Of a DNA stretch of 42,261 bases, positions 2,716 through 39,215 are shown piece after piece. A model generated the notes under the pieces. That model worked only from the letters and a program-made list of their open reading frames with translations, was not told where the DNA came from and did not search any database. Position 1 is the first letter of the stretch. Each line of letters opens with the position of its first letter. The DNA comes from Patescibacteria group bacterium (lineage in GTDB: Bacteria; Patescibacteriota; Minisyncoccia; UBA6257; GWB1-50-10): positions 1-42,261 of the forward strand of contig JANBVK010000001.1 of the NCBI GenBank assembly GCA_024239035.1. Direction: 5' to 3'. The position numbers and the translations under genes were made by a program.

Positions 2716-3450
2716 ATGGATATTACTTTAAATGAAACAGTGCTGTCAGAGATGGCGGAATTTGGGGTTATCTACGGCCACAAAAAATCAAAAACTCACC
2801 CTCTTATGAAACCGGTCATTATAGATAACAGAAACGAAATAGAATTATTGGATCCTGAAGCGGTGGTCAGCAGCTTAAGTAGGGCAATTGAATTTTTAAC
2901 CTTAAAAGCAAAGCAGGGAATGTTGATGCTCTTGGTTGGTACATTACCATCGGCAAAAGAAACAGTTGAAAAGTTTGCGCTGGAGTTTAAGTTTCCTTAT
3001 GTGACAAATCGCTGGCTTGGGGGAACGCTGACAAATTTTAAAGTAATTCATGAGCGGAATTTATATTACCAGGAGCTGAAAGTGAAAAAAGAGAAGGGGG
3101 AATTGGTCAAATATACCAAAAAAGAACAGCTTAAGTTCAGCCGTGAAATTGAAAAACTTAAAAGAAACTTTGAAGGACTGGTTCCTCTTAATAGATTACC
3201 GGATGTCCTTTTCATAGTTGATATAGAAAAACATGATACGGCGGTGAAAGAAGCCCGTCATCTTGGTATTCCGGTAGTCGCAATAGTTGACACTGACGAT
3301 GACCCGAGATTAGTGCAGTACCCAATTTTTGCAAGTGATCACAGTAAAAAAGGTATAGAATGGGTTATGGAGAATGTAAGAAAAAACTTAAGCGGGGTTA
3401 GCAAAGAAGAAGACCCCGGTGATAGTGAGAAAACAAAGAGTGAAGACTGA
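2716..3450 (+). CDS. rpsB: 30S ribosomal protein S2
   Basis: FGVIYGHKKSKTHPLMKP, NRWLGGTLTNF, DVLFIVDIEKHDTAVKEARHLGIPVVAIVDTDDDP. Confidence 0.95.
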   Translation: MDITLNETVLSEMAEFGVIYGHKKSKTHPLMKPVIIDNRNEIELLDPEAVVSSLSRAIEFLTLKAKQGMLMLLVGTLPSAKETVEKFALEFKFPYVTNRWLGGTLTNFKVIHERNLYYQELKVKKEKGELVKYTKKEQLKFSREIEKLKRNFEGLVPLNRLPDVLFIVDIEKHDTAVKEARHLGIPVVAIVDTDDDPRLVQYPIFASDHSKKGIEWVMENVRKNLSGVSKEEDPGDSEKTKSED

Positions 3451-7345: not shown

Positions 7346-7395
7346 ATAATTCTAGATAATTTTTTGCGTTTAAGCGCAAAAAATTATAGAATTAT
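7346..7395 (+). promoter_or_regulatory. Long AT-rich hairpin directly upstream of the rpmG start codon
   Basis: ATAATTCTA-(GA)-TAATTTTTTGCG / CGCAAAAAATTA-TAGAATTAT; ATG at 7399. Confidence 0.7.
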
Positions 7396-7398
7396 GGC

Positions 7399-7569
7399 AT
7401 GGCAAAGGGGAAATTTACAGAACAATTAGTGCGGCTTAGGTGTACTGCCTGCAAGAAGGTTAATTACAATAAGCGCAAGAATAAAAAGACGGTGGAGCGG
7501 AAACTTGAATTAAAGAAGTTTTGTCGTTGGTGTAGGAAGCATAAAACTCATAAGGAGAGTAAGAAGTAA
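7399..7569 (+). CDS. rpmG: 50S ribosomal protein L33
   Basis: MAKGKFTEQLVRLRCTACKKVNYNKRKNKKTVERKLELKKFCRWCRKHKTHKESKK*; not in ORF track because short. Confidence 0.92.
   Translation: MAKGKFTEQLVRLRCTACKKVNYNKRKNKKTVERKLELKKFCRWCRKHKTHKESKK
7513..7569 (+). repeat. Putative attL (rpmG 3' end)
   Basis: Aligns without gaps to 39620-39676; 48/57 identical by hand count. Confidence 0.75.
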
Positions 7570-7685: not shown

Positions 7686-7856
7686 GTGAAACGTATTAAT
7701 GGTGTAACCATTCTCGACGGCAGTGATATAAAAAACCACTGCGGCCGGCACCGACGAAAATGGAATTACTGCAAACACAAGAGACAATTTTGTAGTTGTA
7801 AAGAGTGCCAAAAAGATGCGGTGAGATTCATCGCACTCAATCAAGTAAATCAATGA
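7686..7856 (+). CDS. Small Cys/His-rich phage protein (candidate zinc binder)
   Basis: GTG start, 56 aa: VKRINGVTILDGSDIKNHCGRHRRKWNYCKHKRQFCSCKECQKDAVRFIALNQVNQ; ATGA overlap with next gene. Confidence 0.55.
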   Translation: MKRINGVTILDGSDIKNHCGRHRRKWNYCKHKRQFCSCKECQKDAVRFIALNQVNQ

Positions 7857-9064
7857 TCAATAATTCACAACAGAGTCGAGTACCCAGTAATTTCTTCACC
7901 GAAGCCGAGAACACCAAACCATACTTCAAAGCTGGGCTGCAAGGGTTAGCCGGCTCCGGCAAAACTTACACATCCGCTTTAATCGCCAAAGGCCTCCACG
8001 CACGGATCAAATCAGAAAAACCGGTTGTCATATTCGATACAGAGAAAGCCGCGAAATTCTTAAAGCCGATGTTCGCGGAGGCGAAGATTCCCGTCCTTGT
8101 AAGGGAATCAAAATCACTAACCGATCTCATGGAGGCGATGCGTATGATGCGAGAAGAGGGCTTATCCGATATTCTTATCATCGATTCTATCTCCCACGTC
8201 TGGGAAAACTTTCTTGGTGCATACAAGAAAAAAATCGGCCGTGCCAACTTCCAATTCCAGGACTGGGGCCTGATTAAGCCGGCCTGGAAAGAAAGTTTTT
8301 CGGATCCGTTCGTAGGTGATCCATACCACATCATTATGTGTGGCAGAGCGGGTTACGAATACGGCTATGAGATGAACGAGGACACTCATAAAAAGGAGCT
8401 CCGAAAAACCGGCATCAAGATGAAGGTGGAGGGCGAGACCGCCTACGAGCCGGATCTTCTCATTCAAATGGAGCGCTTTCAGGAAATGGAGGGTAATAGT
8501 CTGAAGCGCGTGATCCGCACCGCGACGGTTATAAAAGACCGATCGACGGTAACCGATGGCAAGGTGTTCGAGAACCCTACCTACGAACATTTCGCGCCGG
8601 CCGTCGAGGTGATGCTCTCTGATCCATTCGCTAAAGCCGGGAACTTGTTGCCTGAGGGCGACCCGGCCGCCATGATCCGCACCGAAGAAGAAAAGTGGGA
8701 GTACCGCCGAGAACTCAAAACTCTCCTCGAGGAAATTGAAGGCCTCCTAAATAGAGTCTTCCCAAGTTCAGTGGGTAAGGACCGGGCGAACAAACTAAGC
8801 TCTCTCGATATGGCTTTCGGCACCACGTCCGAAACGGCCATGAAAGAAATGAGGCCGGACGAATTGCGCGAAGGCTTCCGAAAACTAATGGACATCCTGG
8901 TCGAGGCAGGATCCGCCTATTGGTCGGAACGAGACAGTCGAAGGATTCTAAATATCGGCAAGGATCCCGCCGCCACACCGCCTAGTGAGCTGAAAGACGG
9001 AGAACCGCCCGAAAGCGTCTCAAAACCGCCGAAGAAAAAGGATAAGGCTCCTGAAGCCAAGTAG
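7853..9064 (+). CDS. Phage RecA/Sak4-like ATPase
   Basis: AGLQGLAGSGKTYTSALIAKGL Walker A, VVIFDTEKAAKF, ILIIDSISHVWE Walker B. Confidence 0.8.
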   Translation: MINNSQQSRVPSNFFTEAENTKPYFKAGLQGLAGSGKTYTSALIAKGLHARIKSEKPVVIFDTEKAAKFLKPMFAEAKIPVLVRESKSLTDLMEAMRMMREEGLSDILIIDSISHVWENFLGAYKKKIGRANFQFQDWGLIKPAWKESFSDPFVGDPYHIIMCGRAGYEYGYEMNEDTHKKELRKTGIKMKVEGETAYEPDLLIQMERFQEMEGNSLKRVIRTATVIKDRSTVTDGKVFENPTYEHFAPAVEVMLSDPFAKAGNLLPEGDPAAMIRTEEEKWEYRRELKTLLEEIEGLLNRVFPSSVGKDRANKLSSLDMAFGTTSETAMKEMRPDELREGFRKLMDILVEAGSAYWSERDSRRILNIGKDPAATPPSELKDGEPPESVSKPPKKKDKAPEAK

Positions 9065-9474: not shown

Positions 9475-10509
9475 ATGGAAAATAAAAAACACAAAAGTAT
9501 TCTTCCAAACACAACTCAGGTCCCGCATCTTATTATTCGGACATGGATGCCACGACTTAAAGATACGGAGTTGCGCATACTTCTTGTAATTACTGATCAA
9601 ACTCTCGGCTGGATTGAAGATCGGGCAACCGGCCGGCGCAAAGAACAGGATTGGATATCGCATTATCAACTCTGTAAGAAATCGGGAAGGGCAAGCAGAT
9701 CAGTTTCACGAGCAGCTAAAGTGCTTATTGAAAAACATAGGATAGTCGGGGCGTACGATGAGCAAGGAAACGCCCTGGATACGGCGGGAAAGCGCCAAAA
9801 ATGCGGGTATAGGATTTATTACCGCCTAGCCCTCCATTTGCCTCCTATGACCATTTTTGATACCCCTGCCAAAAGTGCTGGGGTAGCAGATAAGCACCTA
9901 CCCCTGCCAAAAGTGCGTTCGCCAAAAGTGCGAACTACAAAAGTAACCGTTATTACAAAAGGGGTTTTGTCTAAAAAAGACAAAACCTTGCGAACGGCAG
10001 AGCCGATCGCCTCTAAAAGTAAAAATTTAAAAGAAAACAAGAGATCACTGCACAGTCAATTCATAGAATTTTGGCACGAGACAACTCAGCGTGCGCGCGG
10101 TATAAAGCCGGTTATCACAGGCAAGGATGCCCGGAACCTAAAGAGAGTATTGGATATGGGTATTTTGAACCAGTACCGGCTGGAGCAGCTGGCCGCCTAC
10201 TTCCTGGCGCATCCGACGTTTAGGAAATTTAGTCCATCGATTGCGACGTTCCTTTCAGCTGGTATTTTGAACGGTCTAATGAATCGCATGGAGAATGATC
10301 CTAATTTTTGGAAGGAACTTGAGGTGTTTGCAATGCGGCACCTAAAACCGCCGAGCTTCGGAAAAACATTTACAGAAGAAAATCCAAGCGAAATGATCGA
10401 GCGCTTGGCACGATTAAAAGCAAAACTCTTTAAAGAGCCGTTTACTCCAGCTGAGCGCACGAAGTTTCAAGAGGAGGCCGCGGTGGAGGAAAGAGCAGCA
10501 AGAACATGA
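9475..10509 (+). CDS. Phage replication initiator, lambda O-like N-terminal winged helix
   Basis: PHLIIRTWMPRLKDTELRILLVITDQTLGWIEDRATGRRKEQDWISHYQLCKKSGRASRSVSRAAKVLIEKHRI matches the replication protein O N-terminal pattern. Confidence 0.72.
   Translation: MENKKHKSILPNTTQVPHLIIRTWMPRLKDTELRILLVITDQTLGWIEDRATGRRKEQDWISHYQLCKKSGRASRSVSRAAKVLIEKHRIVGAYDEQGNALDTAGKRQKCGYRIYYRLALHLPPMTIFDTPAKSAGVADKHLPLPKVRSPKVRTTKVTVITKGVLSKKDKTLRTAEPIASKSKNLKENKRSLHSQFIEFWHETTQRARGIKPVITGKDARNLKRVLDMGILNQYRLEQLAAYFLAHPTFRKFSPSIATFLSAGILNGLMNRMENDPNFWKELEVFAMRHLKPPSFGKTFTEENPSEMIERLARLKAKLFKEPFTPAERTKFQEEAAVEERAART
9861..9946 (+). repeat. Iteron-like direct repeats (TACCCCTGCCAAAAGTGC / GCCAAAAGTGC)
   Basis: 18-mer at 9861-9878 and 9899-9916; GCCAAAAGTGC again at 9921-9931; degenerate copy near 9936. 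Confidence 0.75.
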
Positions 10510-17544: not shown

Positions 17545-17720
17545 AGGATAAGAGTACGATATTACCAGCGAATCAAAAACCCCGCATTAAGTTCGTGAAA
17601 AAAGCCGGCCTCTGGTGCAGGACAACATGGGTCGACGATAAACAGAAACAAGAATGGTTTAAGGAGAAGCCCATCGAGAAAAAACCGGAAAGTAAAATAG
17701 AACACCATGATGAGTTTTAA
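17541..17720 (+). CDS. Small hypothetical phage protein
   Basis: MKDKSTILPANQKPRIKFVKKAGLWCRTTWVDDKQKQEWFKEKPIEKKPESKIEHHDEF*; overlaps both neighbours. Confidence 0.55.
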   Translation: MKDKSTILPANQKPRIKFVKKAGLWCRTTWVDDKQKQEWFKEKPIEKKPESKIEHHDEF

Positions 17721-19003
17721 TGAAAATTGAACAGATAAAAATTAAGGATATCCGTTTTTCGGAATACAATCCGCGGAAGATTACTGATACGGAGCTCACG
17801 AAACTATGTGAGAGCATCCGCATGTTCGGGTTCGTTAACCCGGTAGTGGTAAATACACATACCTGCGAGAAATGCGCCGACCGGAACCTCGTGCTTATTG
17901 GTGGGCATCAGAGAGTCAAAGCGGCCGAATCTGAAGGAATGGATGAAGTGCCGACGGTAAAAGTAGATCTTCACCTCGAGCAGGAGAAGATCTTAAACCT
18001 ATCACTAAACAGGATCGGCGGTGCGTGGGACGCTGACAAGCTGGCGGATCTAATTTTGGATATCAGAGGATCAAGCATACTTCCCATGTCGGGATTCAAT
18101 GAAGATGAGATCAGTCGTATACTCGATAGCAGGCTTATTGATGATACCGATTATGGGAACGAGGAGACAATCCCCGAAGATCATGATTCGCAAATCGGCG
18201 AAGTGTACGATCTTGGGGTTCACCGGCTTGTGTGCGGCGACTCAACCGACCCTAAAACGTTTGATCTCCTCCTCGGTGATGAAAAGGCGGACATGGTATG
18301 GACTGATCCGCCATACAACGTTGCTTATGAGAGCCGCGGAAAAAGATTAAGAGAGGAAAACAAGTCAACCATTAAGAATAACGACCTACCACCCGAACAG
18401 TTCCAGGAGCTTATTGATAAATCGTTTTTTAACATGCTGCAGTGCGCAAAAAGCGGAGCGGTGTTTTATATCTGCTCGGGTTGGTCAAGTTATCCGGTGT
18501 TTTTCGAGCAACTCAAAAAACACGGATTCAAGTTGTCAGGTACGATCGTATGGGTTAAAAATATCGCATCGAAGGGATGGGGCGATTATGACTACAAGCA
18601 TGAATGGATTGTCCGGGCCCGGAAAAAAGAAGAAAAGGAAAAAGTAAAGGGAGTAAGCATTATTTACGGTTGGAAAGAAGGGTCAGCACATAAATTCTTC
18701 GGCAGTAGGGACGAGTTTGACGTGTGGGAGATGCCGCGCAAAGCGGTGATGCAATACCTGCACCCCACCGAAAAACCCGACTGGCTGCCTATGCGGGCGA
18801 TCCGCAACTCCTCAAAACGCGGGGATATTATTCTTGATCCGTACACAGGGTCGGGCAGTGTAATGCTTGCAGCGGAGAAAACCGGCCGGCGGGCGTACAT
18901 GATTGAATACGATCCGCGGTTCTGCGATGTTATCCGGCGGCGGTACGAAACAATATTGAGAAAAAATCAGGAAATTAAAGGTCGACCGCAAAATAATCAG
19001 TGA
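17720..19003 (+). CDS. ParB-domain/DNA methyltransferase fusion (N4-C or N6-A type)
   Basis: N-term ParB-like LVLIGGHQRVKAAESEGMDEVPTVKV; C-term DMVWTDPPYNVAYES and LDPYTGSGSVMLAAEKTGRRAYMIEYDP. Confidence 0.88.
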   Translation: MKIEQIKIKDIRFSEYNPRKITDTELTKLCESIRMFGFVNPVVVNTHTCEKCADRNLVLIGGHQRVKAAESEGMDEVPTVKVDLHLEQEKILNLSLNRIGGAWDADKLADLILDIRGSSILPMSGFNEDEISRILDSRLIDDTDYGNEETIPEDHDSQIGEVYDLGVHRLVCGDSTDPKTFDLLLGDEKADMVWTDPPYNVAYESRGKRLREENKSTIKNNDLPPEQFQELIDKSFFNMLQCAKSGAVFYICSGWSSYPVFFEQLKKHGFKLSGTIVWVKNIASKGWGDYDYKHEWIVRARKKEEKEKVKGVSIIYGWKEGSAHKFFGSRDEFDVWEMPRKAVMQYLHPTEKPDWLPMRAIRNSSKRGDIILDPYTGSGSVMLAAEKTGRRAYMIEYDPRFCDVIRRRYETILRKNQEIKGRPQNNQ

Positions 19004-19261: not shown

Positions 19262-19855
19262 ATGCCAAGTAGACCAAAGGAAGTAGAACAAAATCTAAGG
19301 CGGGTTATTCGTGATGCAATTGTATACGATCCGCTTATTTCTGTGCGAGGTCTCCAGGACATTTTATTAAAGCAGGGTTTCAAGACGACTAGAGAGAATG
19401 TGCTTGACTGGCACTACGTTGCAAATCTCGTCCGCAAAGTGAGGAGGGAGTCTGTCGAGAAGTCTGATAAAAAAAGACTGCAAACGCGTTTCGGTGAGCT
19501 TAGTGAGAAATACCGTGTTATCTCTGAGCGGTTGATCCGGATAGCGTTTTACACCAAAGAAATGAGGCAGCTAGGTATGAAGCCGCCGAGTTATGATGAG
19601 CAGATGAAAGCCCTGGACATGATTTTCAAGCTTGACCTGGCCATTCTGCAAGCGGAGATGGATGCAGGTATCTACCAGCGAAAACTCGGATCAATGGATA
19701 TAACAACCCCAATACCGCTCGACAACGCAGTAAAACTTAACATGCTGCAGGTTTTTCATCATTGGGGTCTTATTAAAGAACCACCAAAGAGAATAGATAT
19801 TAATGATAGCCGAGACATTAAAACAATTTCAGAGCCAACAAAACCTAAGTCCTGA
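19262..19855 (+). CDS. Putative terminase small subunit
   Basis: Position directly upstream of TerL, basic HTH-like N-terminus. Confidence 0.5.
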   Translation: MPSRPKEVEQNLRRVIRDAIVYDPLISVRGLQDILLKQGFKTTRENVLDWHYVANLVRKVRRESVEKSDKKRLQTRFGELSEKYRVISERLIRIAFYTKEMRQLGMKPPSYDEQMKALDMIFKLDLAILQAEMDAGIYQRKLGSMDITTPIPLDNAVKLNMLQVFHHWGLIKEPPKRIDINDSRDIKTISEPTKPKS

Positions 19856-21260
19856 AGAATTAGGACAACTTCTTGAGCATCCGGAAGTTAGAAAAGAACT
19901 CCGAAAAACTTACAAGGGGTTTTGTTTTGTATATTCTTCGCATTATTTAAGATTACCTCCCGCTGAATTTCACCCGGAAATGATTGATCTTTTAGGCGAC
20001 TGGCTGGAAGACATGCTCGCACTCGTCGCTTTTAGAGGATCAGCGAAGACAACTCTTGGAAACACATTGCTTACTTTATGGGCAGCTCTTGAAAAAGAAA
20101 GTCCATTCATACTGCCATTTAACGAAACTGGTGACGTTGCAGTTTTAAATATCGCAAACATTCGTCACGAGCTTGAGAACAACGAGCTTCTCATCCAGGA
20201 CTACGGCGATATGAGCAAGGGGATTAGCAAAAACAGGAGCTGGACAAAGCTTAATCTTCTTCTCGCAAACGGCGTGCGCATTATGGGACGTTCACGGGGG
20301 CAAAAAGTCCGCGGACTTATACATCGCGGCCACCGTCCCAGCTTTGTGATTATTGATGACCCGGAGGAACTCCACAAAGTAAAAGGTGAAGCATACCGGG
20401 AGAGAACGGAACAGTGGCTGCGCTCAGACGTAATACCTGCGATTGATGAGTTTGGTTCGCGGTTAATATTACTCCTTAATCTTCTTCACCGTGATTCACT
20501 AGCAGCGCGCATTAAAAACGATCCACTCTTTACTTATAGAGAATATCCAGTCCTTGACGAGAAAGACAATATTATGTGGAAGGGAAAGTACCCGGACATG
20601 GAAGCGATAAAAAAACAGGAGCAAAAGGTTACGTCTTTAAAAAAGGGATCGCGGGGCACGTGGATGCGGGAGTACATGCTCAAAGTTATCTCGGAAGAAG
20701 AACAGGTAATTAAGGAGGAGTGGATCAGACGTTACGATAAAGTACCAACTGAAGCTATAAAGAGCGGGGTGGGGGTTGACCTTGCAATCAGCAAAAAGGA
20801 TACGGCCAACAAAACGGCAATGGTATCGGGAGTGCTCGCGTTTGTTGATGGCATGCCGAAAATCTATGTTCTCCCAAATCCAGTTAACGCTAGATTCACT
20901 TTTAACGAAACTATGAGTGAGATGAGAAGCATTGCTCTAGGACTCCGGATCTACGCTCCGCCGATGTTTTTTATAGAAGATGTGGCGTTCCAAAAAGCAG
21001 CAATTCAAGAAGCAGAACGCAAGATGATCGCTGTTAAAGGGATGAAACCGGGAAGTGACAAGAGATCGCGACTTGGAACTGCATCGGTTTATGTACAAAA
21101 CGGCACAGTGTTGTTTCCTAAAAAAGGTTGTGAAGATTTAATTGATCAACTCATCGGTTTTGGCGTAGAAGATGATGACGACTTGGCCGATGGATTTGTA
21201 TACATGGTGCTCGGGCTGGCCGAGGAGGGCCTTGAACAAGATGGAGTAGTAATGTTATGA
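19803..21260 (+). CDS. Terminase large subunit
   Basis: LVAFRGSAKTTLGNTLLTLWA Walker A, SFVIIDDPEELHKV Walker B, GVDLAISKKDTANKTAM nuclease-like motif. Confidence 0.88.
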   Translation: MIAETLKQFQSQQNLSPEELGQLLEHPEVRKELRKTYKGFCFVYSSHYLRLPPAEFHPEMIDLLGDWLEDMLALVAFRGSAKTTLGNTLLTLWAALEKESPFILPFNETGDVAVLNIANIRHELENNELLIQDYGDMSKGISKNRSWTKLNLLLANGVRIMGRSRGQKVRGLIHRGHRPSFVIIDDPEELHKVKGEAYRERTEQWLRSDVIPAIDEFGSRLILLLNLLHRDSLAARIKNDPLFTYREYPVLDEKDNIMWKGKYPDMEAIKKQEQKVTSLKKGSRGTWMREYMLKVISEEEQVIKEEWIRRYDKVPTEAIKSGVGVDLAISKKDTANKTAMVSGVLAFVDGMPKIYVLPNPVNARFTFNETMSEMRSIALGLRIYAPPMFFIEDVAFQKAAIQEAERKMIAVKGMKPGSDKRSRLGTASVYVQNGTVLFPKKGCEDLIDQLIGFGVEDDDDLADGFVYMVLGLAEEGLEQDGVVML

Positions 21261-21466
21261 ACGGTAAGAAACCAACAACAAGAACTATGCGCGAGGTACC
21301 GGACGAGTGGGACCGGCTGATGCGTGTCGCCGCGGCGATTAATTACGGATCCGCAAAGGTGGTATTTAAAGATGGCAAGCCGGTGCGGATTGATGCGGCC
21401 ATAAAGCAAATAAAACTCGATAGCGAGGATGATTTTAATGAAGGATTGAAAACGATACCGCTTTAA
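21257..21466 (+). CDS. Hypothetical phage protein
   Basis: ORF overlapping terL stop. Confidence 0.5.
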   Translation: MNGKKPTTRTMREVPDEWDRLMRVAAAINYGSAKVVFKDGKPVRIDAAIKQIKLDSEDDFNEGLKTIPL

Positions 21467-21820: not shown

Positions 21821-21869
21821 GCTTAAAGTCGCCTGTTTTTTATCCACAGACAAAACAGAGTGGATTTGT

Positions 21870-21991
21870 TATAATAAAAGCGTAAATTAACAATTCATTC
21901 CCAGCTCGGGGATGGGTCCGAGTGGAGCAACCATAGGACTTGTGACCTTGCCTTTCTATTTAGAGGCTCGTGTCACGAGTCCTTTTTTATT
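21870..21991 (+). ncRNA. Structured leader copy A (promoter, hairpin, conserved linker, terminator-like hairpin) upstream of portal
   Basis: TATAAT 21870-21875; GCTCGG/CCGAGT hairpin; AGTGGAGCAACCATAGGACT; GGACTTGTGAC/GTCACGAGTCC then TTTTTT. Confidence 0.75.
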
Positions 21992-22000
21992 TGCGTTTCT

Positions 22001-24205
22001 ATGGATGTTTTTATCAACAAACTTCTTGGTAAGGTAGGTCTTGTTCGTAAGTCAAGCATATCTACCTCATCTTCGTTGGGCGGCTCAGACCCTTTTGCGA
22101 TTTGGCGTGGCTCAAAAAAAATCTCAGTTGAAAAAGCAATGGGGGTGTACAGCGGTTGGGTTTACACTGCTGTGCGGGCAATTGCGGAAGAAATAGGGCG
22201 CATTCCTTTCCATTTATTTCAGATAAAGAAGGATGGATCGATTGAGGAGCTGTTCGATCATGATCTTCTTAATCTCTTGTTCGCTCCGAATCCGCATCAC
22301 ACAGGATACGAGCTGAAGTACAACACACTCGCACACCTCGAGCTCGGTGGGAATTCATATTGGTTACTTGACGGCGTTAAAAATGATACCGACCAACCGC
22401 GCAATATTTATTGGCTGAGTCCTAAGTACATGACGGTTGAGAAGGGCGAGATTCCTGAGATTGTAAAAGGTTACACTTACCGCATCGGATCAAAAACTAC
22501 AAAGTATCAGCCGCACGAAATTCTTCACATCCGTTATCCCGATCCCAACGATCCCTTTGAGGGTATCGGAACGGTGCAGTCAATCGCGCAATGGATCGAT
22601 GCGGATAACTATGCTACTGAATTCAATCGCCGCTTTTTCTTAAATGGTGCTCGGATCGGCGGATTTCTTGAGTCGGAAAACGCGCGCACTCCCGAACAGT
22701 TAGAATTTTTGAAAAAATCTTTTGAAGAAATTTATAAGGGTGTTGAGAACGCGTACAAGATAGCGGCGTTGCCGAAAGGGACAAGTTATAAAGAAGGTCA
22801 GTCAAAGATTAAGGACATGGACTTTGCGAATCTGCAGCGTGATAGCCGGGATAAGATACTCGCAGGATTCCGGGTGCCGAAAACTACCCTGGGCGCTGCC
22901 GAGAGCGACACTAACCGCGCCACTGCAGAGACCGCCGATTTCGTTTTCGCTGCCCGGACAATCAAACCCAAAATGGAACTGCTTGTTACATTTTTGAACG
23001 AGCGATTGGTGCCGCGATACGGTGACGACATATATCTCGACTTTGATAATCCAGTACCAGAGAACCGGGAACAGCGGATTAAAGAAATGGAAGCGGCCAC
23101 CGGCAAACAACCAGTGATAAGTATTAACGAGGCGCGCGAACAATACTTTACGCTGCCGCCTATTGAAAACGGTGATGCCGTAAGAGGCGACTTAATGAAA
23201 CAGCCGATCGGTGAACCCGAAAAGCGGCGGAAGAATGTGGTAAACATTAAAACCAAAAACGGCAGGACGATACCGAAAACAAGATTCGCCTTAAATCTGA
23301 AACGCAGAAAAGACGCATCGAAAGAGATCGCGGGTTGTCTCGTTGATGAGGTGAAAAAAATCGGAGAAGATGCAGAAAAGATAAAAGAAAGAGCGCAGCA
23401 GGGGATCGCAGAACTAAACGACGAACAGTACGAAGCTATCTGGAAAGTATTTATCACACGCATATCGCCATTTGAGAAGCGGCAAGTAGAGGCGTTGCGA
23501 GATTTCAACAGTAAGCAAAAAGATGAAGTGCTTAAGAATCTTGAGAGTGCTCTCAAGGCCCTCCCGGCAGAGAAAGCGATCAACCCCGATGATTTATTTA
23601 AAAAGGGTGAATGGGTTGGCGTGCTCGTTGATTTAGAGACACCAATCCTTACTGAACTCTATGAAGAGGAAGGATCCGCGGCTGCTGAGTTTCTGGGATT
23701 TGATGATTTAAACATTCTCACGCCCGCAAACAAAAAAGCGTTAGATGAGTCCGTTGAGCTCATGGCCGAATCCTACAACGAATCAACGCTGAAACTCCTT
23801 AAAAAGAAGCTTGAGGAAGGCCAGCGCGAGGGGTTGCCTCTTGAGGAGTTGAAGGAAACGGTCCGCAGCGTGTATGCCTTCAGTGATGAAGTGCGGGCAG
23901 AACGGGTTGCCCGGACAGAGACGTTTAGAATCGCTAACAAAGCGACAAAAGATGCCTGGAAAGAAACAGAAGTTGTAAAAACTATCAAGTGGTACACAGC
24001 TCAAGATGAACGGGTTGATCCTGAAATCTGTGCGCCGCTCCATGGGAAAGTGATCTCAATTGAAGATAACTTTTTCAATAAGGGAGATGAAATAGAACTC
24101 AGTAATGGTGGAACATTTAAGGTCGATTATGACGACGTGGGAAGTCCACCCATCCACGTCAGTTGCCGATGCTATATGAGACCGGAAGAAATAAGCATCG
24201 ATTAA
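22001..24205 (+). CDS. HK97-type portal fused to Mu F/SPP1 gp7-like head morphogenesis domain
   Basis: Portal N-terminal two-thirds (VYTAVRAIAEEIGRIPFHLFQ...); C-terminal RVARTETFRIANKATKDAWKE...WYTAQDERVDPEICAPLHGK...PPIHVSCRCYMRPE. Confidence 0.85.
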   Translation: MDVFINKLLGKVGLVRKSSISTSSSLGGSDPFAIWRGSKKISVEKAMGVYSGWVYTAVRAIAEEIGRIPFHLFQIKKDGSIEELFDHDLLNLLFAPNPHHTGYELKYNTLAHLELGGNSYWLLDGVKNDTDQPRNIYWLSPKYMTVEKGEIPEIVKGYTYRIGSKTTKYQPHEILHIRYPDPNDPFEGIGTVQSIAQWIDADNYATEFNRRFFLNGARIGGFLESENARTPEQLEFLKKSFEEIYKGVENAYKIAALPKGTSYKEGQSKIKDMDFANLQRDSRDKILAGFRVPKTTLGAAESDTNRATAETADFVFAARTIKPKMELLVTFLNERLVPRYGDDIYLDFDNPVPENREQRIKEMEAATGKQPVISINEAREQYFTLPPIENGDAVRGDLMKQPIGEPEKRRKNVVNIKTKNGRTIPKTRFALNLKRRKDASKEIAGCLVDEVKKIGEDAEKIKERAQQGIAELNDEQYEAIWKVFITRISPFEKRQVEALRDFNSKQKDEVLKNLESALKALPAEKAINPDDLFKKGEWVGVLVDLETPILTELYEEEGSAAAEFLGFDDLNILTPANKKALDESVELMAESYNESTLKLLKKKLEEGQREGLPLEELKETVRSVYAFSDEVRAERVARTETFRIANKATKDAWKETEVVKTIKWYTAQDERVDPEICAPLHGKVISIEDNFFNKGDEIELSNGGTFKVDYDDVGSPPIHVSCRCYMRPEEISID

Positions 24206-31246: not shown

Positions 31247-31336
31247 ATGAAGTGGACAGAGCAAGAATTTTTGAACCAGCGCCTAGATTTTATAGAAGGA
31301 ATTGCGGAGCATATGCGTAATAGACAGAAAAAATAA
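31247..31336 (+). CDS. Putative gpT-like -1 frameshift extension (or 29-aa ORF)
   Basis: MKWTEQEFLNQRLDFIEGIAEHMRNRQKK*; same frame is open back to the slippery site. Confidence 0.55.
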   Translation: MKWTEQEFLNQRLDFIEGIAEHMRNRQKK

Positions 31337-31337
31337 A

Positions 31338-32810
31338 ATGGCGAGTACGGTCATCCAAATTTTATTACAAGCGCGAGATGAAGCATCAGCAAAGATGCGG
31401 GGGCTTTCGGGTTCTATAAGGAAACTCGGCGGTGTTGTTAAATCTTTTATTCCCGTACTGGGAGTTATTGGACTGGGTCTTGCTTTCAAAAATATTATAC
31501 AAAGCGCTGCAGAATTTGAGCAGCAAATGTCAAATATAGCAACGCTCATTAGCGGTGATTCAACCGAAGCCATTAAAGGATTCACAAAAGGTATACAGGA
31601 ATTGTCAAAGGTAATTCCCAAAGACCCTAAAGAACTCGGAGCGGCTGCATACCAGATTGTGTCGGCCGGAATATCAGATGTGAATGAAGCGCTTGATGTG
31701 CTGAAGTCATCGTCGCGTTTGGCCGTAGCGGGTCTTGGTACAACTGAAGAAGCGACCGACTTGCTCACTTCAGCTCTCAATGCTTTCGGAATTAGCTCTG
31801 ACAAGTCGGAAGAGACTGCAGCAATTCTTTTTAACACCGTAAAGCAGGGAAAAACAACGGTTGCGCAGCTCTCCCGGGCATTCGGTATGGTTGCGCCGAT
31901 AGCGGCCGAGATGGGAGTCTCTTTAGAAGAATTACAAGCAGCAACCGCAGCTCTCACCCTCACAGGTCTACAAACGTCCGTTGCACAAACTCAACTGAGA
32001 GCGGCAATGGCGTCGCTTATGAAACCGACCAAGGAGGCAAAAGATCTCTTTGACTCGCTGGGCGTCGTATCATTCAAGCAGCTCATAGACAAATCAGGCG
32101 GGCTAGTAGGCGCTTTTGAAAAATTAAAAGAGGCAGCAGCCGGAAATGAGGAAGCGCTTGCCAAAGCTGCAGGATCGGTAGAAGGACTAAATGCCATCCT
32201 TTCTTTAACAGGATCGCAAAGTGAAGCTTTTGCTAAAACAATGGAATCAACGAAAGATGCAACCGTTAATTTTGATGAGGCTGTTCAAAAACAAAACGAG
32301 ACAGCTAAGGCACAATTTCAGCTTTTGAAAAATAAGCTCAATGTTGAATTACAAAAGTTAGCGCTTATTATTCTGCCAGCTTTAGTGGAAATAATGAAAG
32401 TCCTTCCTACTATTGTTAACGCATTTTTTATAAAACCATTCAACGATGCAACTGAAGCAGTCGCTAATGTTATTTTCAAAGTCATGCAGGCGATCGATGC
32501 TATGAGAAGATTTAGAAGTAGTGTTTCGGGCGCGATAAGCTCTGCGTCCTCAAGTGTGAGTGGGTTTGTTTCTAATGTCTTGGGTGGTGCGCGAAATGTG
32601 CTCGGGCTTCAGCACGGCGGTATTGTGACCCGGCCGACTCTCGCTATGATCGGCGAGGCGGGACCGGAAGCTGTAATTCCGTTACGGGGCGCGGCCGGCA
32701 TTGGTGGAATCACCATCAACATGAGCGGAACGTTCATGACGGCCAGAGAGGCAGCGCTTGAATTTGCAAATGAAATCGCAAACGAAATAAAACGGCAGAT
32801 AAGGGTATAA
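31338..32810 (+). CDS. Phage tail tape measure protein
   Basis: LQARDEASAKMRGLSGSIRKLGGVVKSFIPVLG...; C-term HGGIVTRPTLAMIGEAGPEAVIPL; ATG at 31338. Confidence 0.85.
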   Translation: MASTVIQILLQARDEASAKMRGLSGSIRKLGGVVKSFIPVLGVIGLGLAFKNIIQSAAEFEQQMSNIATLISGDSTEAIKGFTKGIQELSKVIPKDPKELGAAAYQIVSAGISDVNEALDVLKSSSRLAVAGLGTTEEATDLLTSALNAFGISSDKSEETAAILFNTVKQGKTTVAQLSRAFGMVAPIAAEMGVSLEELQAATAALTLTGLQTSVAQTQLRAAMASLMKPTKEAKDLFDSLGVVSFKQLIDKSGGLVGAFEKLKEAAAGNEEALAKAAGSVEGLNAILSLTGSQSEAFAKTMESTKDATVNFDEAVQKQNETAKAQFQLLKNKLNVELQKLALIILPALVEIMKVLPTIVNAFFIKPFNDATEAVANVIFKVMQAIDAMRRFRSSVSGAISSASSSVSGFVSNVLGGARNVLGLQHGGIVTRPTLAMIGEAGPEAVIPLRGAAGIGGITINMSGTFMTAREAALEFANEIANEIKRQIRV

Positions 32811-34732: not shown

Positions 34733-34738
34733 ATGTGG

Positions 34739-34860
34739 TATAATTAGGACATATAATTGAAAATCAATACTCGCGATAGGCGAGTTTGAGTCTAAGTGGA
34801 ATAACCATAGGACTCGCGGTTTACCTGATCTCCAGGATAAGCTGCGGGTCCCTTTTATTT
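34739..34860 (+). ncRNA. Structured leader copy B upstream of the fibre gene
   Basis: TATAAT; ACTCGC-gatag-GCGAGT; AAGTGGAATAACCATAGGACT; GGACTCGCGG/CTGCGGGTCC then CTTTTATTT. Confidence 0.75.
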
Positions 34861-34865
34861 AAACC

Positions 34866-36824
34866 ATGGCACGCAGCGCAGAAGTCAATATAGGAGATAA
34901 CGCATTAGCAGCTCAATACAATAATCTCCGCAAGGATGCGATTGCGGCGGCGCATTTGCTTGCCCACGAGCAGGCAACTCCTGATCTCACTCTTAAAGTT
35001 GAATCGGGAGTTTATTATATTGGTTCAACGCGCGTTGCGTTTGCGGGCGGGAACAGTCCCTCTTTTGTTGCACCGACTACAAACCCCCGCATTGACCTTC
35101 TTGTGATTGACAGCGCAGGAGTGCTCTCGATTGTCCAGGGCACGGAAGCGCCGAGCCCGAGCATACCGACCTACCCGCAGGATAAGGTAACTCTTTGTGA
35201 AGTGTTTAACCGCGTTGGCGAAACAAGCATTAAAGACATAGATGATACATCGAACGGTTACATTCAGCGGGACGTCCGCCCATTTTTAGGGAAATCCTTT
35301 GATCCAGCAAGCGTGGATCAGGACATTATTCCTGCAACCGACGATACCCACGATCTAGGAAGCGCAGCAAAACAATGGGCTGAGGTCCGAACCGTCAAAA
35401 TTTTCGTGGATGGCGCGGAAATGAAAGGGACACTTGAATCGTTTACTGCAGGCGAAAATCTTACCATCGGTGATCCCGCTGGCGTTGCATCTGGAAATAA
35501 GGTAAAGAAGGCATTTAATTACGGCGCAGCACTAGGGTCAGAGACAGTATTTAAAGCAACTGCAACCACAAACGTTGCGGCTGCACAAATTGCCGATGAT
35601 AAGTTCGTTCTTGCTTACTGGGACGGCACAAATGTAAGAGCAAGAGTGGCAACGGTATCGGGCACCACGCCTAGTTTCGGAACGGAAGTGACTATCAGCG
35701 GCGTAGCGTCGCAACCTGTCATAGATGTTTGTAAATTAGACACCGATAAATTTGTAGTTGTTTACTCACAAGGAAACCGAACGCGACTCGGTCGCCCCTG
35801 TTCGGTATCAGGAACAACTATTACACTCGGGACAATCAAAGATTTCGGCGACTTTCCAAGCGCGGACACATCAATTATAAAATGCGCCCAGCTTGATGTT
35901 GACAAATTTGTTGTGATGGCGGGAGCGCTGGACACAGCAGTAGTAATCTGGGCAAATACTGTAAGCGCATTAGTAATCACAAAAGGTAGTGACACTGCTC
36001 TTGGAATGGGAGCGCCGCCGACAGACAGCAAACACAATGCAAACGCTTCGCTTGCACAGGTTGACACCGATAAATTTGTGGCTGCATATCGAAAGGTGTC
36101 CGACAACGATGGCTATGTAAAAATAGGGACCGTAAGCGGAACAATCATCACGCTCGGAGGAGAGACGTCTTTCAACGCAGCCGATACGAGCGAGATTGAC
36201 GCTGTATGCCCGACCACCACCAATCTCATTGTCTCTTACAAAGACGAAGGTAATTCAAACCAGGGGACTCTGGTTGCAGCGACAATATCAGGCACTACGC
36301 CAACTTTTGGGAGCGAGGTGGTTTTTGAAACAGGCATTACTAATTTTACTTCAATAGCGAAAGTAGGCAGTAAGACAGTCGTCATTGCCTACCAAGACGC
36401 GGGAGACTCGAATCATGGAAAGGTGGTATCGGCAAAGATAAACGGGAATACGGTGAGCGGCGTAGGGACGGGCTTGGCGATTACTACGTTTAACGCGGCA
36501 ACCACGACCTACATTGCGATAGCAGACACAAATTCAACAGGATCGTTTATTGTGGGCTATCGCGATGAAGGCAATTCAAACCAGGGGACGGCCGTTGTTG
36601 GTGAAGGTGACACCGTTCAAAACTTTACTGGAATTGTACAAGCAACGGTAACTTCTGGTAATCCTGTCGACGTGAAACTGATCGGGACAGACAGCAACCA
36701 GAGCGGATTGACTACGGGACAAAAGTATTTCGCTGTTGACGGAGCATTAAGCACCAGTAATGAGAATGGCGATGATTCTAAGGTTGGCTGGGCAAAGACG
36801 GCAACCTCGATCGTAATAACATAA
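34866..36824 (+). CDS. Putative tail fibre/receptor-binding protein with propeller-like repeats
   Basis: Recurring (V/L)DTDKFV(V/A)(V/A)Y...VSGTTxxxGxEV(T/V)(I/F) units over ~350 aa. Confidence 0.72.
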   Translation: MARSAEVNIGDNALAAQYNNLRKDAIAAAHLLAHEQATPDLTLKVESGVYYIGSTRVAFAGGNSPSFVAPTTNPRIDLLVIDSAGVLSIVQGTEAPSPSIPTYPQDKVTLCEVFNRVGETSIKDIDDTSNGYIQRDVRPFLGKSFDPASVDQDIIPATDDTHDLGSAAKQWAEVRTVKIFVDGAEMKGTLESFTAGENLTIGDPAGVASGNKVKKAFNYGAALGSETVFKATATTNVAAAQIADDKFVLAYWDGTNVRARVATVSGTTPSFGTEVTISGVASQPVIDVCKLDTDKFVVVYSQGNRTRLGRPCSVSGTTITLGTIKDFGDFPSADTSIIKCAQLDVDKFVVMAGALDTAVVIWANTVSALVITKGSDTALGMGAPPTDSKHNANASLAQVDTDKFVAAYRKVSDNDGYVKIGTVSGTIITLGGETSFNAADTSEIDAVCPTTTNLIVSYKDEGNSNQGTLVAATISGTTPTFGSEVVFETGITNFTSIAKVGSKTVVIAYQDAGDSNHGKVVSAKINGNTVSGVGTGLAITTFNAATTTYIAIADTNSTGSFIVGYRDEGNSNQGTAVVGEGDTVQNFTGIVQATVTSGNPVDVKLIGTDSNQSGLTTGQKYFAVDGALSTSNENGDDSKVGWAKTATSIVIT

Positions 36825-37070: not shown

Positions 37071-37685
37071 ATGAGAACGCTTCAACTATATTATTCTTTA
37101 CACCCCTGGACGGTTGCCCAAAAATTCGGCCTAAACGGCGAATTCTATCGCAAGAATGGAATAAACATCAAAGGCCATAACGGCATCGATGCGGTCCGGG
37201 GCGGCGGCCACGAAATTCACGCCGCAAATGTCCGGGCCGCCCACGACGGAGTAGTCACTTACGTCGGTGTGGACAACAAAGAAGGATACGGCGTCGTGAT
37301 AAGGACCAAAAAACAGTTTCTCGATGTGAACGGTCAGCCGCATTTCTGGAAAACGATCTACTGGCATCTCCTACCGAACATTCCGGTCAAAGTCGGACAA
37401 GAAGTGAAAATCGGCGACATACTCGGCGAAGCCGACAATACCGGTTTCAGCTTTGGCAGTCATCTCCATTTCGGCTTGAAGCCGATTTACCAGGGCGAAA
37501 ACGACTGGACGTGGTTCAATCTCGATCAAAGCAATGGTTATTTTGGAGCGGTGGATCCCGAGCCGTACTTTACTGGATTGACTGCCTATGATCTCACGAC
37601 AAAGTTCCGCGACATCGCAAAGATTCTCAAAGAGATATTTAACTTGATAATGAGCTTCAAAAAGATAGTTTCTAAAAGGTCGTAA
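37071..37685 (+). CDS. M23-family peptidase endolysin
   Basis: GHNGIDAVRG, AHDGVVTYVG, SHLHFGLK metal-binding motifs. Confidence 0.85.
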   Translation: MRTLQLYYSLHPWTVAQKFGLNGEFYRKNGINIKGHNGIDAVRGGGHEIHAANVRAAHDGVVTYVGVDNKEGYGVVIRTKKQFLDVNGQPHFWKTIYWHLLPNIPVKVGQEVKIGDILGEADNTGFSFGSHLHFGLKPIYQGENDWTWFNLDQSNGYFGAVDPEPYFTGLTAYDLTTKFRDIAKILKEIFNLIMSFKKIVSKRS

Positions 37686-38015: not shown

Positions 38016-38192
38016 CACAATTAAAAAACCTATTGTCCCGGAAGGGATCACCCGCAGCGGCGGGAGATATGACCGATGGGGTTCAAAATTGCCGAGAGAG
38101 GCAATATAATGATAACGCGATGGCGAAAGCTGTCGTAGTGCCTTGCAAGGCGCGCACGAACCCACCGTTGAGTCATATCGCGGTGGGTTTCG
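38016..38192 (+). ncRNA. Structured leader/small RNA upstream of integrase
   Basis: Hairpins TCCC-GGAA-GGGA, CCCGC-AGCG-GCGGG, ATTGCC-GAGAGA-GGCAAT, CGATGGC-GAAA-GCTGTCG, GCCTTGCAAGGC, then AACCCACCG/CGGTGGGTT. Confidence 0.6.
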
Positions 38193-38197
38193 TGTTT

Positions 38198-39160
38198 ATG
38201 AAATTCAGTGATGCAATAGAAAAATTTATTAACAGATCTGATTTAGAGAGAGCAGAAGGAACTGTAAAAGCGTATGAACAAGATCTCAAGAGATTCTGCG
38301 TCTTCACGCACAACCCTATCATCACAGAGATAACAGAAGAGAATGTGGTGGCGTACTTCCGGTTGCTCATCGAGTTGAAATACAAAAAGAATGCGTTTAT
38401 TCCCATACAACAATCCTTAATAAACTTCTTTAGATATTGGAGGAGAAAGGGACTTTACGTTCTGGATCACGAATTGATCCCCCGGACCAAAAAAGAATTC
38501 AGGATGCCGGATGTCGCCACAGAGGAAGATTACAGGAAGATGTTGGCGGCCATTCCTCAAGACACCAACCAGGCATTCCACATCAGGAACCGCGCCATGG
38601 TCATGTTCCTTGAAGCGACCGGCTGTCGCAACGGTGAGATGTGCTCTCTCAATATTGGTGATTCTAACTCTAGTCAAATCAAAAAAAATTACCTCGATCT
38701 AAGAAATCAAAAAGCATTGATCGAGACAGAAAAGAATAGAGGCAGTAGGCCCATTAGAGAGATATATTGGAAGGACAGCAAAGAAACTCACGAGGCGTTA
38801 TTAAAATGGATCGCAAGACGTTCTGAAATGAAAAAACATATAGTTTTTAAGGACCCTGACGCTCTCTTCGTAGGTTGTATGGGCTGGCAAGTAGGGAAAC
38901 GGCTGATGAACAGTGCAGTATGTATTGCGCTGCGCAAAATTTCAAGGAGTGCCGGGCTTACTTACAATTTTCATCCTCACATGCTCCGCCATAAATTCGG
39001 GCACGATCTTAATCGTGAAGGAGCAAATGCCTTTACAATTGCCGGGCTATTAGGACATGTTTTAGTAGAGAGTTCAAAAATTTATACGGAGATGGATAAT
39101 AAAGAGAGGCAAGAGGCGTATGTGAAATATAAGGGGGACCGGCACAAGAAAGACCAGTAG
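38198..39160 (+). CDS. int: Tyrosine recombinase (phage integrase)
   Basis: RAMVMFLEATGCRNGEMCSL, HPHMLRHKFGHDL, AGLLGHVLVESSKIYTEM; start at 38198 preferred over track start. Confidence 0.9.
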   Translation: MKFSDAIEKFINRSDLERAEGTVKAYEQDLKRFCVFTHNPIITEITEENVVAYFRLLIELKYKKNAFIPIQQSLINFFRYWRRKGLYVLDHELIPRTKKEFRMPDVATEEDYRKMLAAIPQDTNQAFHIRNRAMVMFLEATGCRNGEMCSLNIGDSNSSQIKKNYLDLRNQKALIETEKNRGSRPIREIYWKDSKETHEALLKWIARRSEMKKHIVFKDPDALFVGCMGWQVGKRLMNSAVCIALRKISRSAGLTYNFHPHMLRHKFGHDLNREGANAFTIAGLLGHVLVESSKIYTEMDNKERQEAYVKYKGDRHKKDQ

Positions 39161-39182: not shown

Positions 39183-39212
39183 ACTCGTTAGGAGTAGGTA
39201 TTAGAATTATGG
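39183..39212 (+). promoter_or_regulatory. Putative promoter with operator-like motif in spacer
   Basis: Approximately TTGACT-N16-TAGAAT containing CGTTAGGAGTA. Confidence 0.5.
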
Positions 39213-39215
39213 CAT

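Follow-up and report, generated by a model that had tools for sequence, protein, structure and literature searches.

The window, meaning the whole stretch of 42,261 nucleotides that was analysed, belongs to a patescibacterial genome of 0.79 Mb and carries a run of host genes, named from their translations as those for bS16, a KH protein, TrmD, S2 and EF-Ts, followed by a tailed prophage. Along the prophage we found a terminase (19803-21260), a portal protein gene that is the first of the head block (22001-24205, + strand; PHROG portal protein, E 1e-103) and is followed by protease and capsid genes, a tape measure (31302-32810), a gene for a fibre-like structural protein of 652 aa (34866-36824, + strand; ORFs, Pfam and PHROG) and an integrase (38033-39160). 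Downstream of the fibre-like gene come a 77-aa protein, an M23 peptidase (37071-37685, Pfam/PHROG match) and a 92-aa protein. Going by position and by the M23 match, the 652-aa protein is possibly a fibre, and the three genes after it possibly form a lysis block. A 14-bp direct repeat, TAGAATTATGGCAT, lies just past the tRNA-Thr genes (7387-7400) and again just past the integrase (39202-39215). It is a possible attachment-site core, in which case the prophage would span about 7.4-39.2 kb, and the presence of another 14-bp repeat (8004/40733) leaves room for a chance origin. Reading of the sequence also suggested that the product of 17720-19003 has a ParB-like N-terminal part fused to a DNA methylase. 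Shortly before the portal leader, a gene at 21257-21466 encodes a 69-aa protein that had no Pfam or PHROG match and has relatives in many of the phages compared below, including two (L018 and L054) that lack the element described here.

The original prediction of two leader copies was borne out by the sequence: copy A (about 21870-21990) directly precedes the portal gene and copy B (34736-34860) directly precedes the fibre gene. The string AACCATAGGACT occurs exactly twice in the window, and these two sites are the only ones in the whole genome. Both copies share one layout, in which an extended -10 box is followed by about 60 nt and then by a strong terminator. The -10 boxes that had been proposed ahead of both are present as TGNTATAAT, with TGTTATAAT at 21867-21875 (+ strand) in copy A and TGGTATAAT at 34736-34744 (+ strand) in copy B; among the 22 leaders compared, a TATAAT-like box stands 60-66 nt ahead of the terminator in 10. 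A string like ACAAYTGAA is loosely repeated between promoter and P1, the first hairpin, in both copies (21882-21900 and 34752-34766) and also in L040, L034, L087, L041 and L013.

All parts of both leaders lie on the + strand. In copy B, the P1 hairpin ACTCGC-GATAG-GCGAGT (34769-34785), which is not present in all relatives, almost abuts a second structure, the antiterminator P2. The 5′ outer arm of P2 (P2a, TGAGTCT, 34787-34793) was delimited by a structural descriptor and by covariation, and its inner hairpin (P2b, GTGG-AATAA-CCAT, 34796-34808) by covariation in related phages. The switch strand GGACTCG (34810-34816) pairs with both of its partners, being at once the 3′ outer arm of P2 and the first bases of an intrinsic terminator hairpin (34810-34851, -27.8 kcal/mol) that is followed by CTTTTATTT. 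Copy A has the P1 hairpin CATTCCC-AGCTC-GGGGATG (21896-21914), the equivalent of which in L040 is ATTCCCGC...GCGGGGAT, the 5′ outer arm TGGGTCC (21913-21919, from the descriptor), the inner hairpin GTGG-AGCAA-CCAT (21922-21934, from the descriptor and covariation) and a terminator hairpin with a TTTTTTATT tail (21936-21982, -25.9 kcal/mol), whose first bases, GGACTTG, are the switch strand.

P2 is thus built of an outer stem, an RA/A internal loop, a 4-bp inner stem and an A-N-N-A-A loop. As in an attenuator, an intrinsic terminator with a GC-rich stem and a U-tract precedes the downstream gene, and the GGACT strand pairs in both of two alternative helices, which makes antiterminator and terminator mutually exclusive. 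The GAGTC at 34788-34792, which had been pointed out as a possible competitor of the terminator, can indeed pair with GACTC at 34811-34815 and turned out to be the outer arm of the antiterminator. The leaders fold far better than their shuffles (z of -4.3 and -6.2 for the two copies). The descriptor, written as outer stem, 2-3 nt, inner stem, 4-5 nt loop, inner stem, 1-2 nt and a terminator sharing the outer arm, matched only copies A and B in the window, and 49 dinucleotide shuffles of the window yielded 13 raw matches (about 0.27 per shuffle).

A search with the portal gene showed that 19 of 22 distinct related phage loci, with portals 44-56% identical, have the element immediately ahead of the portal gene. 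The exceptions are L018, L020/L022 and L054, and no element was found in a more distant portal clade (L047-L085). In L020 and L054 there seems to be a plain promoter directly ahead of the portal gene. The element is also borne by one genome of the same phylum and by one of the same class. In L186 (genome G617, of the same phylum) the 600 nt around the leader are identical to those of the viral contig L045, and the two are the same phage. The exact pattern AGTGGANNAACCATAGGAC occurred at four loci among the viral contigs, all of them chance matches within coding sequence, and 99 further genomes from the family and order contained no nearly identical pattern. A model search outside phage loci, in 389 genomes of the phylum and 392 of the class, gave no strong match, and blastn of the element produced no meaningful match to named phages. 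We did not count the weak matches L184, L188 and L189 (the last two from the genome search outside phage loci), in which the descriptor is absent.

Comparison of the relatives revealed which letters are kept. The inner stem GUGG/CCAU is replaced by AUGG/CCAU, AUCG/CGAU, GUUG/CAAU, AUUG/CAAU, ACGG/CCGG, CCGG/CCGG or CUUG/CAAG, around an A-N-N-A-A loop. The final A of the loop is found in 23 of 23 sequences; the closing G-C pair never varies, and for the most part the RA/A internal loop is preserved. As to geometry, L030 and L033 deviate, and L013, L335 and L230b have weak outer stems. The linker AGTGGA-N2-AACCAT, which had been read as single-stranded, contains the paired GUGG and CCAU, and relatives have other pairing letters at these places; rather than fixed single-stranded blocks, it is the structure that is kept while the exact linker letters vary. 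Nor is the loop GAT(A/G)GG a fixed block: P1 of copy A, supported by the closest relative L040, has the loop AGCTC, and P1 is absent or undetectable in about half of the relatives. Being unconserved across the leaders, this loop was ruled out as a binding motif.

The antiterminator covaries. Over 23 sequences, 89.9% of cells are paired and 41 cells are changed on both sides, with a covariation score of 0.607 compared with 0.221 +/- 0.027 for shuffled controls, which ignore relatedness, and with at most 0.177 for slid partners, which preserve it. The 16 leaders that could be aligned gap-free have 90.3% of their cells paired and reach a score of 0.634, compared with 0.266 +/- 0.034. For the terminator, the score in 13 of the leaders is 0.825 against 0.303 +/- 0.045. 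Since both helices covary, the covariation of the GGNNN strand extends to two separate partners, which is what a switch should show. As the descriptor had also played a part in choosing the leaders, how often such an antiterminator occurs is judged fairly from the other terminator-like sites in the same loci, of which 8 of 391 have one. The changes between copies A and B had been called compensatory, for which two copies are too few, and the description became true once the related phages were compared. Selection at the RNA level, also proposed from the two copies, is upheld by helices that are conserved and covarying in related phages.

We also looked for copies through the inner hairpin, in two scans with this hairpin and AGG alone and one that added a T-run. 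Most matches were due to chance, and the outer stem lay outside the search pattern, except for degenerate positions in one of the AGG scans. New loci with the full element were L227/L272, L321, L215/L303, L222/L224, L230 (twice), L335 and L336. In L227/L272 and L321 it stands before portals 44-47% identical to that of our prophage. The three innermost outer pairs form in seven of seven held-out copies, with the terminator also present, and the outer stem scored 0.571 against 0.301 +/- 0.071, bearing in mind that L215, L222 and L230 are mutually related and that the seven therefore amount to fewer independent cases. L230 and L336 are unrelated phages, as judged by the families of their portal, protease or capsid. 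L230 (IMGVR_UViG_3300025082_000022) bears two copies despite having no kinship to our prophage, one between terminase and portal and another before the capsid block; they lie at about 3188-3247 and 7422-7484 on the minus strand. This phage is distantly related (about 30%) to Pelagibacter, Roseobacter and Alcaligenes phages, and in these named relatives and one more no element was found, apart from a single weak match inside a gene. In L336 the element precedes the head protease and in L335 it follows a portal; overall, the copies found precede portal, head-protease, scaffold-position or capsid-block genes. Those of L215, L222 and L230 have no clear promoter in front and may act as switches inside operons.

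The association with late structural genes that had been proposed is supported. Two copies ahead of two structural operons, as claimed, are indeed what this prophage has, but a general two-operon switch is atypical of the group, copy B being peculiar. In five phages that share both of its flanking genes, these are separated by about 25 nt or less, with no leader between them, and we thus regard copy B as an insertion that this phage alone has among the relatives compared. In sequence it resembles the L040 portal leader more than it does copy A, which is weak evidence that it may have been acquired from elsewhere instead of duplicated in place.

We propose that each copy is a promoter-proximal transcription attenuator of late head or fibre-lysis genes, off by default and opened by a factor that stabilises P2, and we hold this to be the probable explanation, though well short of certain. 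The promoter-like boxes, the predicted mutually exclusive helices, their covariation and the position before structural genes can all be read from the sequence. A sigma-70-type promoter would start a leader RNA of about 100 nt, in which P1, in the leaders that have it, and the antiterminator P2 would be the first structures to fold. With the appearance of the terminator's 3′ half, the more stable terminator would capture the P2-closing strand GGNNN, and RNA polymerase would stop short of the portal gene in copy A and of the fibre/lysis genes in copy B. The late genes would be read when a trans-acting factor, for which a phage RNA-binding protein of late infection is the likeliest candidate, binds P2 and holds the switch strand.

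Minimum-energy folds of growing transcripts agree with this order of events in both copies: P1 forms, then P2 is the lowest-energy state between about nt 60 and nt 98, staying best for about 35 nt of further transcription until the terminator wins at the last bases of its 3′ arm, and the inner hairpin is predicted to persist in both states. That the terminator could be prevented by an upstream competing arm, as had been suggested, is supported. The terminators, at about -15 to -39 kcal/mol, are always more stable than P2, at -4 to -16 kcal/mol, so termination would be the expected default and read-through would need something that holds P2. We infer that P2 causes read-through and that a phage-encoded factor is the trigger; the conserved letters of the loop and internal loop suggest a putative binding site. 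Among the proteins encoded in the window, none is both restricted to element-bearing phages and recognisable as an RNA-binding regulator. An AAA protein (7805-9064) and a replication-O-like protein (9475-10509) occur only in element-bearing loci, with the loci unevenly covered, and both were set aside as candidates since they look like replication/recombination genes.

The lack of a recognisable factor among the window proteins would also suit a leader that needs none, in which competition between the folding of P2 and of the terminator sets a fixed partial read-through and hence the dose of portal or fibre. P2 forms first and is by itself stable enough (-4 to -16 kcal/mol) to compete during transcription, and P1 is optional. 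A fixed leak, however, needs no conserved letters, yet the loop-final A is kept in all 23 sequences, the closing G-C pair does not vary and RA/A is largely retained, and we consider this account unlikely, albeit the most serious of the competitors. Somewhat less likely again is that processive antitermination is loaded at the inner hairpin, in the manner of boxB/lambda N or of put RNA, with the overlap between hairpin and terminator being secondary. The hairpin is small, has an A-rich loop of five bases and sits just behind a late-gene promoter, and put of phage HK022 works as an RNA without a dedicated protein (PMC9378689). However, there is covariation between the outer arm and the 5′ arm of the terminator itself, which mere loading would not require, and put comprises about 70 nt in two long stems as against about 30 nt here.

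Conserved loop letters and an expression platform typical of riboswitches would likewise be expected if P2, or P1 and P2 together, were the aptamer of a small-molecule riboswitch, but such an aptamer would have only about 30 nt, the element stands only before phage structural genes and none that are metabolic, and it has no Rfam riboswitch match, so that we find this very improbable. That this is an ordinary terminator serving the genes upstream, preceded by a hairpin through chance, can hardly be entertained: the element does come after the end of an upstream gene, but most elements are preceded by a promoter-like -10, the antiterminator covaries, only 8 of 391 other terminators have one and the held-out copies contradict it too. 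Leader-peptide attenuation was rejected upon reading of the leaders, which have no start codon at a conserved place, ATGG being elsewhere ACGG, ATCG or ATTG.

The attenuator remains our preferred reading. A few model phages have a well-understood timing of their late genes. On this timing in patescibacterial phages, nearly all of which are sequence-only, the literature searched gave no account. From a conserved RNA switch in front of the portal, predictions follow for the stop sites of transcripts, for the bases that a factor contacts and for the genes that rise together. That the element occurs in phages whose portal, protease and capsid genes differ suggests a shared signal and makes a search for the factor worthwhile. 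It is conceivable, though we lean against it, that the element represents an undescribed class of antiterminator RNA common to unrelated phage lineages, placed before head/tail genes and reading one conserved signal (a late phage protein or a host elongation factor), and hence a widespread assembly switch. At gathering score, Rfam matches in the window are tRNAs only and no family fits the element; relaxed searches gave RsaOG (E 0.055) and Twister-P5 (E 0.65) on copy A and ctRNA_p42d (E 0.25) on L177, all far below the cut-offs. No description of the element was found in the literature searched, which did not extend to subscription journals and preprints.

Among known systems, the ANTAR-target leaders (EutV, NasR, AmiR) similarly have a P1 hairpin and a P2 hairpin that overlaps the terminator, and protein binding there favours P2 and read-through (PMC3369936, PMC8934654). 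Both of their hairpins carry hexaloops with A1 and G4 (PMC8934654), whereas P2 here has an A-N-N-A-A loop of five and sometimes four bases that does not follow this rule, and P1 is not always present; we therefore rejected an ANTAR-target RNA. The ANTAR domain PF03861 had no match in the genome, and none in the control genomes either. The RAT of BglG/LicT, which a protein stabilises, is, like our element, a short internal-loop hairpin that overlaps and shortens a terminator (PMC3369936). Unlike the element, it contains two internal loops, both asymmetric, and its genes are sugar genes controlled by the PTS, and it was discarded on the grounds that the element has one RA/A internal loop only; CAT_RBD (PF03123) had no match in the genome and matched in four control genomes. 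The late control of lambda and phage 21 (pR′, tR′, Q) also places an early terminator after a late promoter, and polymerase has to get past it for late expression (PMC6606751), but lambda Q is loaded from promoter DNA elements with no antiterminator RNA, while the conserved feature here is an RNA structure. HK022 put resembles the element as a set of cis-acting RNA hairpins near a phage promoter that allow read-through (PMC9378689), but it acts on RNA polymerase without pairing with the terminator. In the Caulobacter gene transfer agent, according to the part of the published account drawn on here, a phage-derived structural cluster is likewise held behind terminators, but GafZ sits at a promoter DNA element and that part describes no antiterminator hairpin for it (PMC11150451). 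The proposed attenuator is new as a family and known in its general principle, and it is set apart from both the ANTAR-target and the RAT RNAs.
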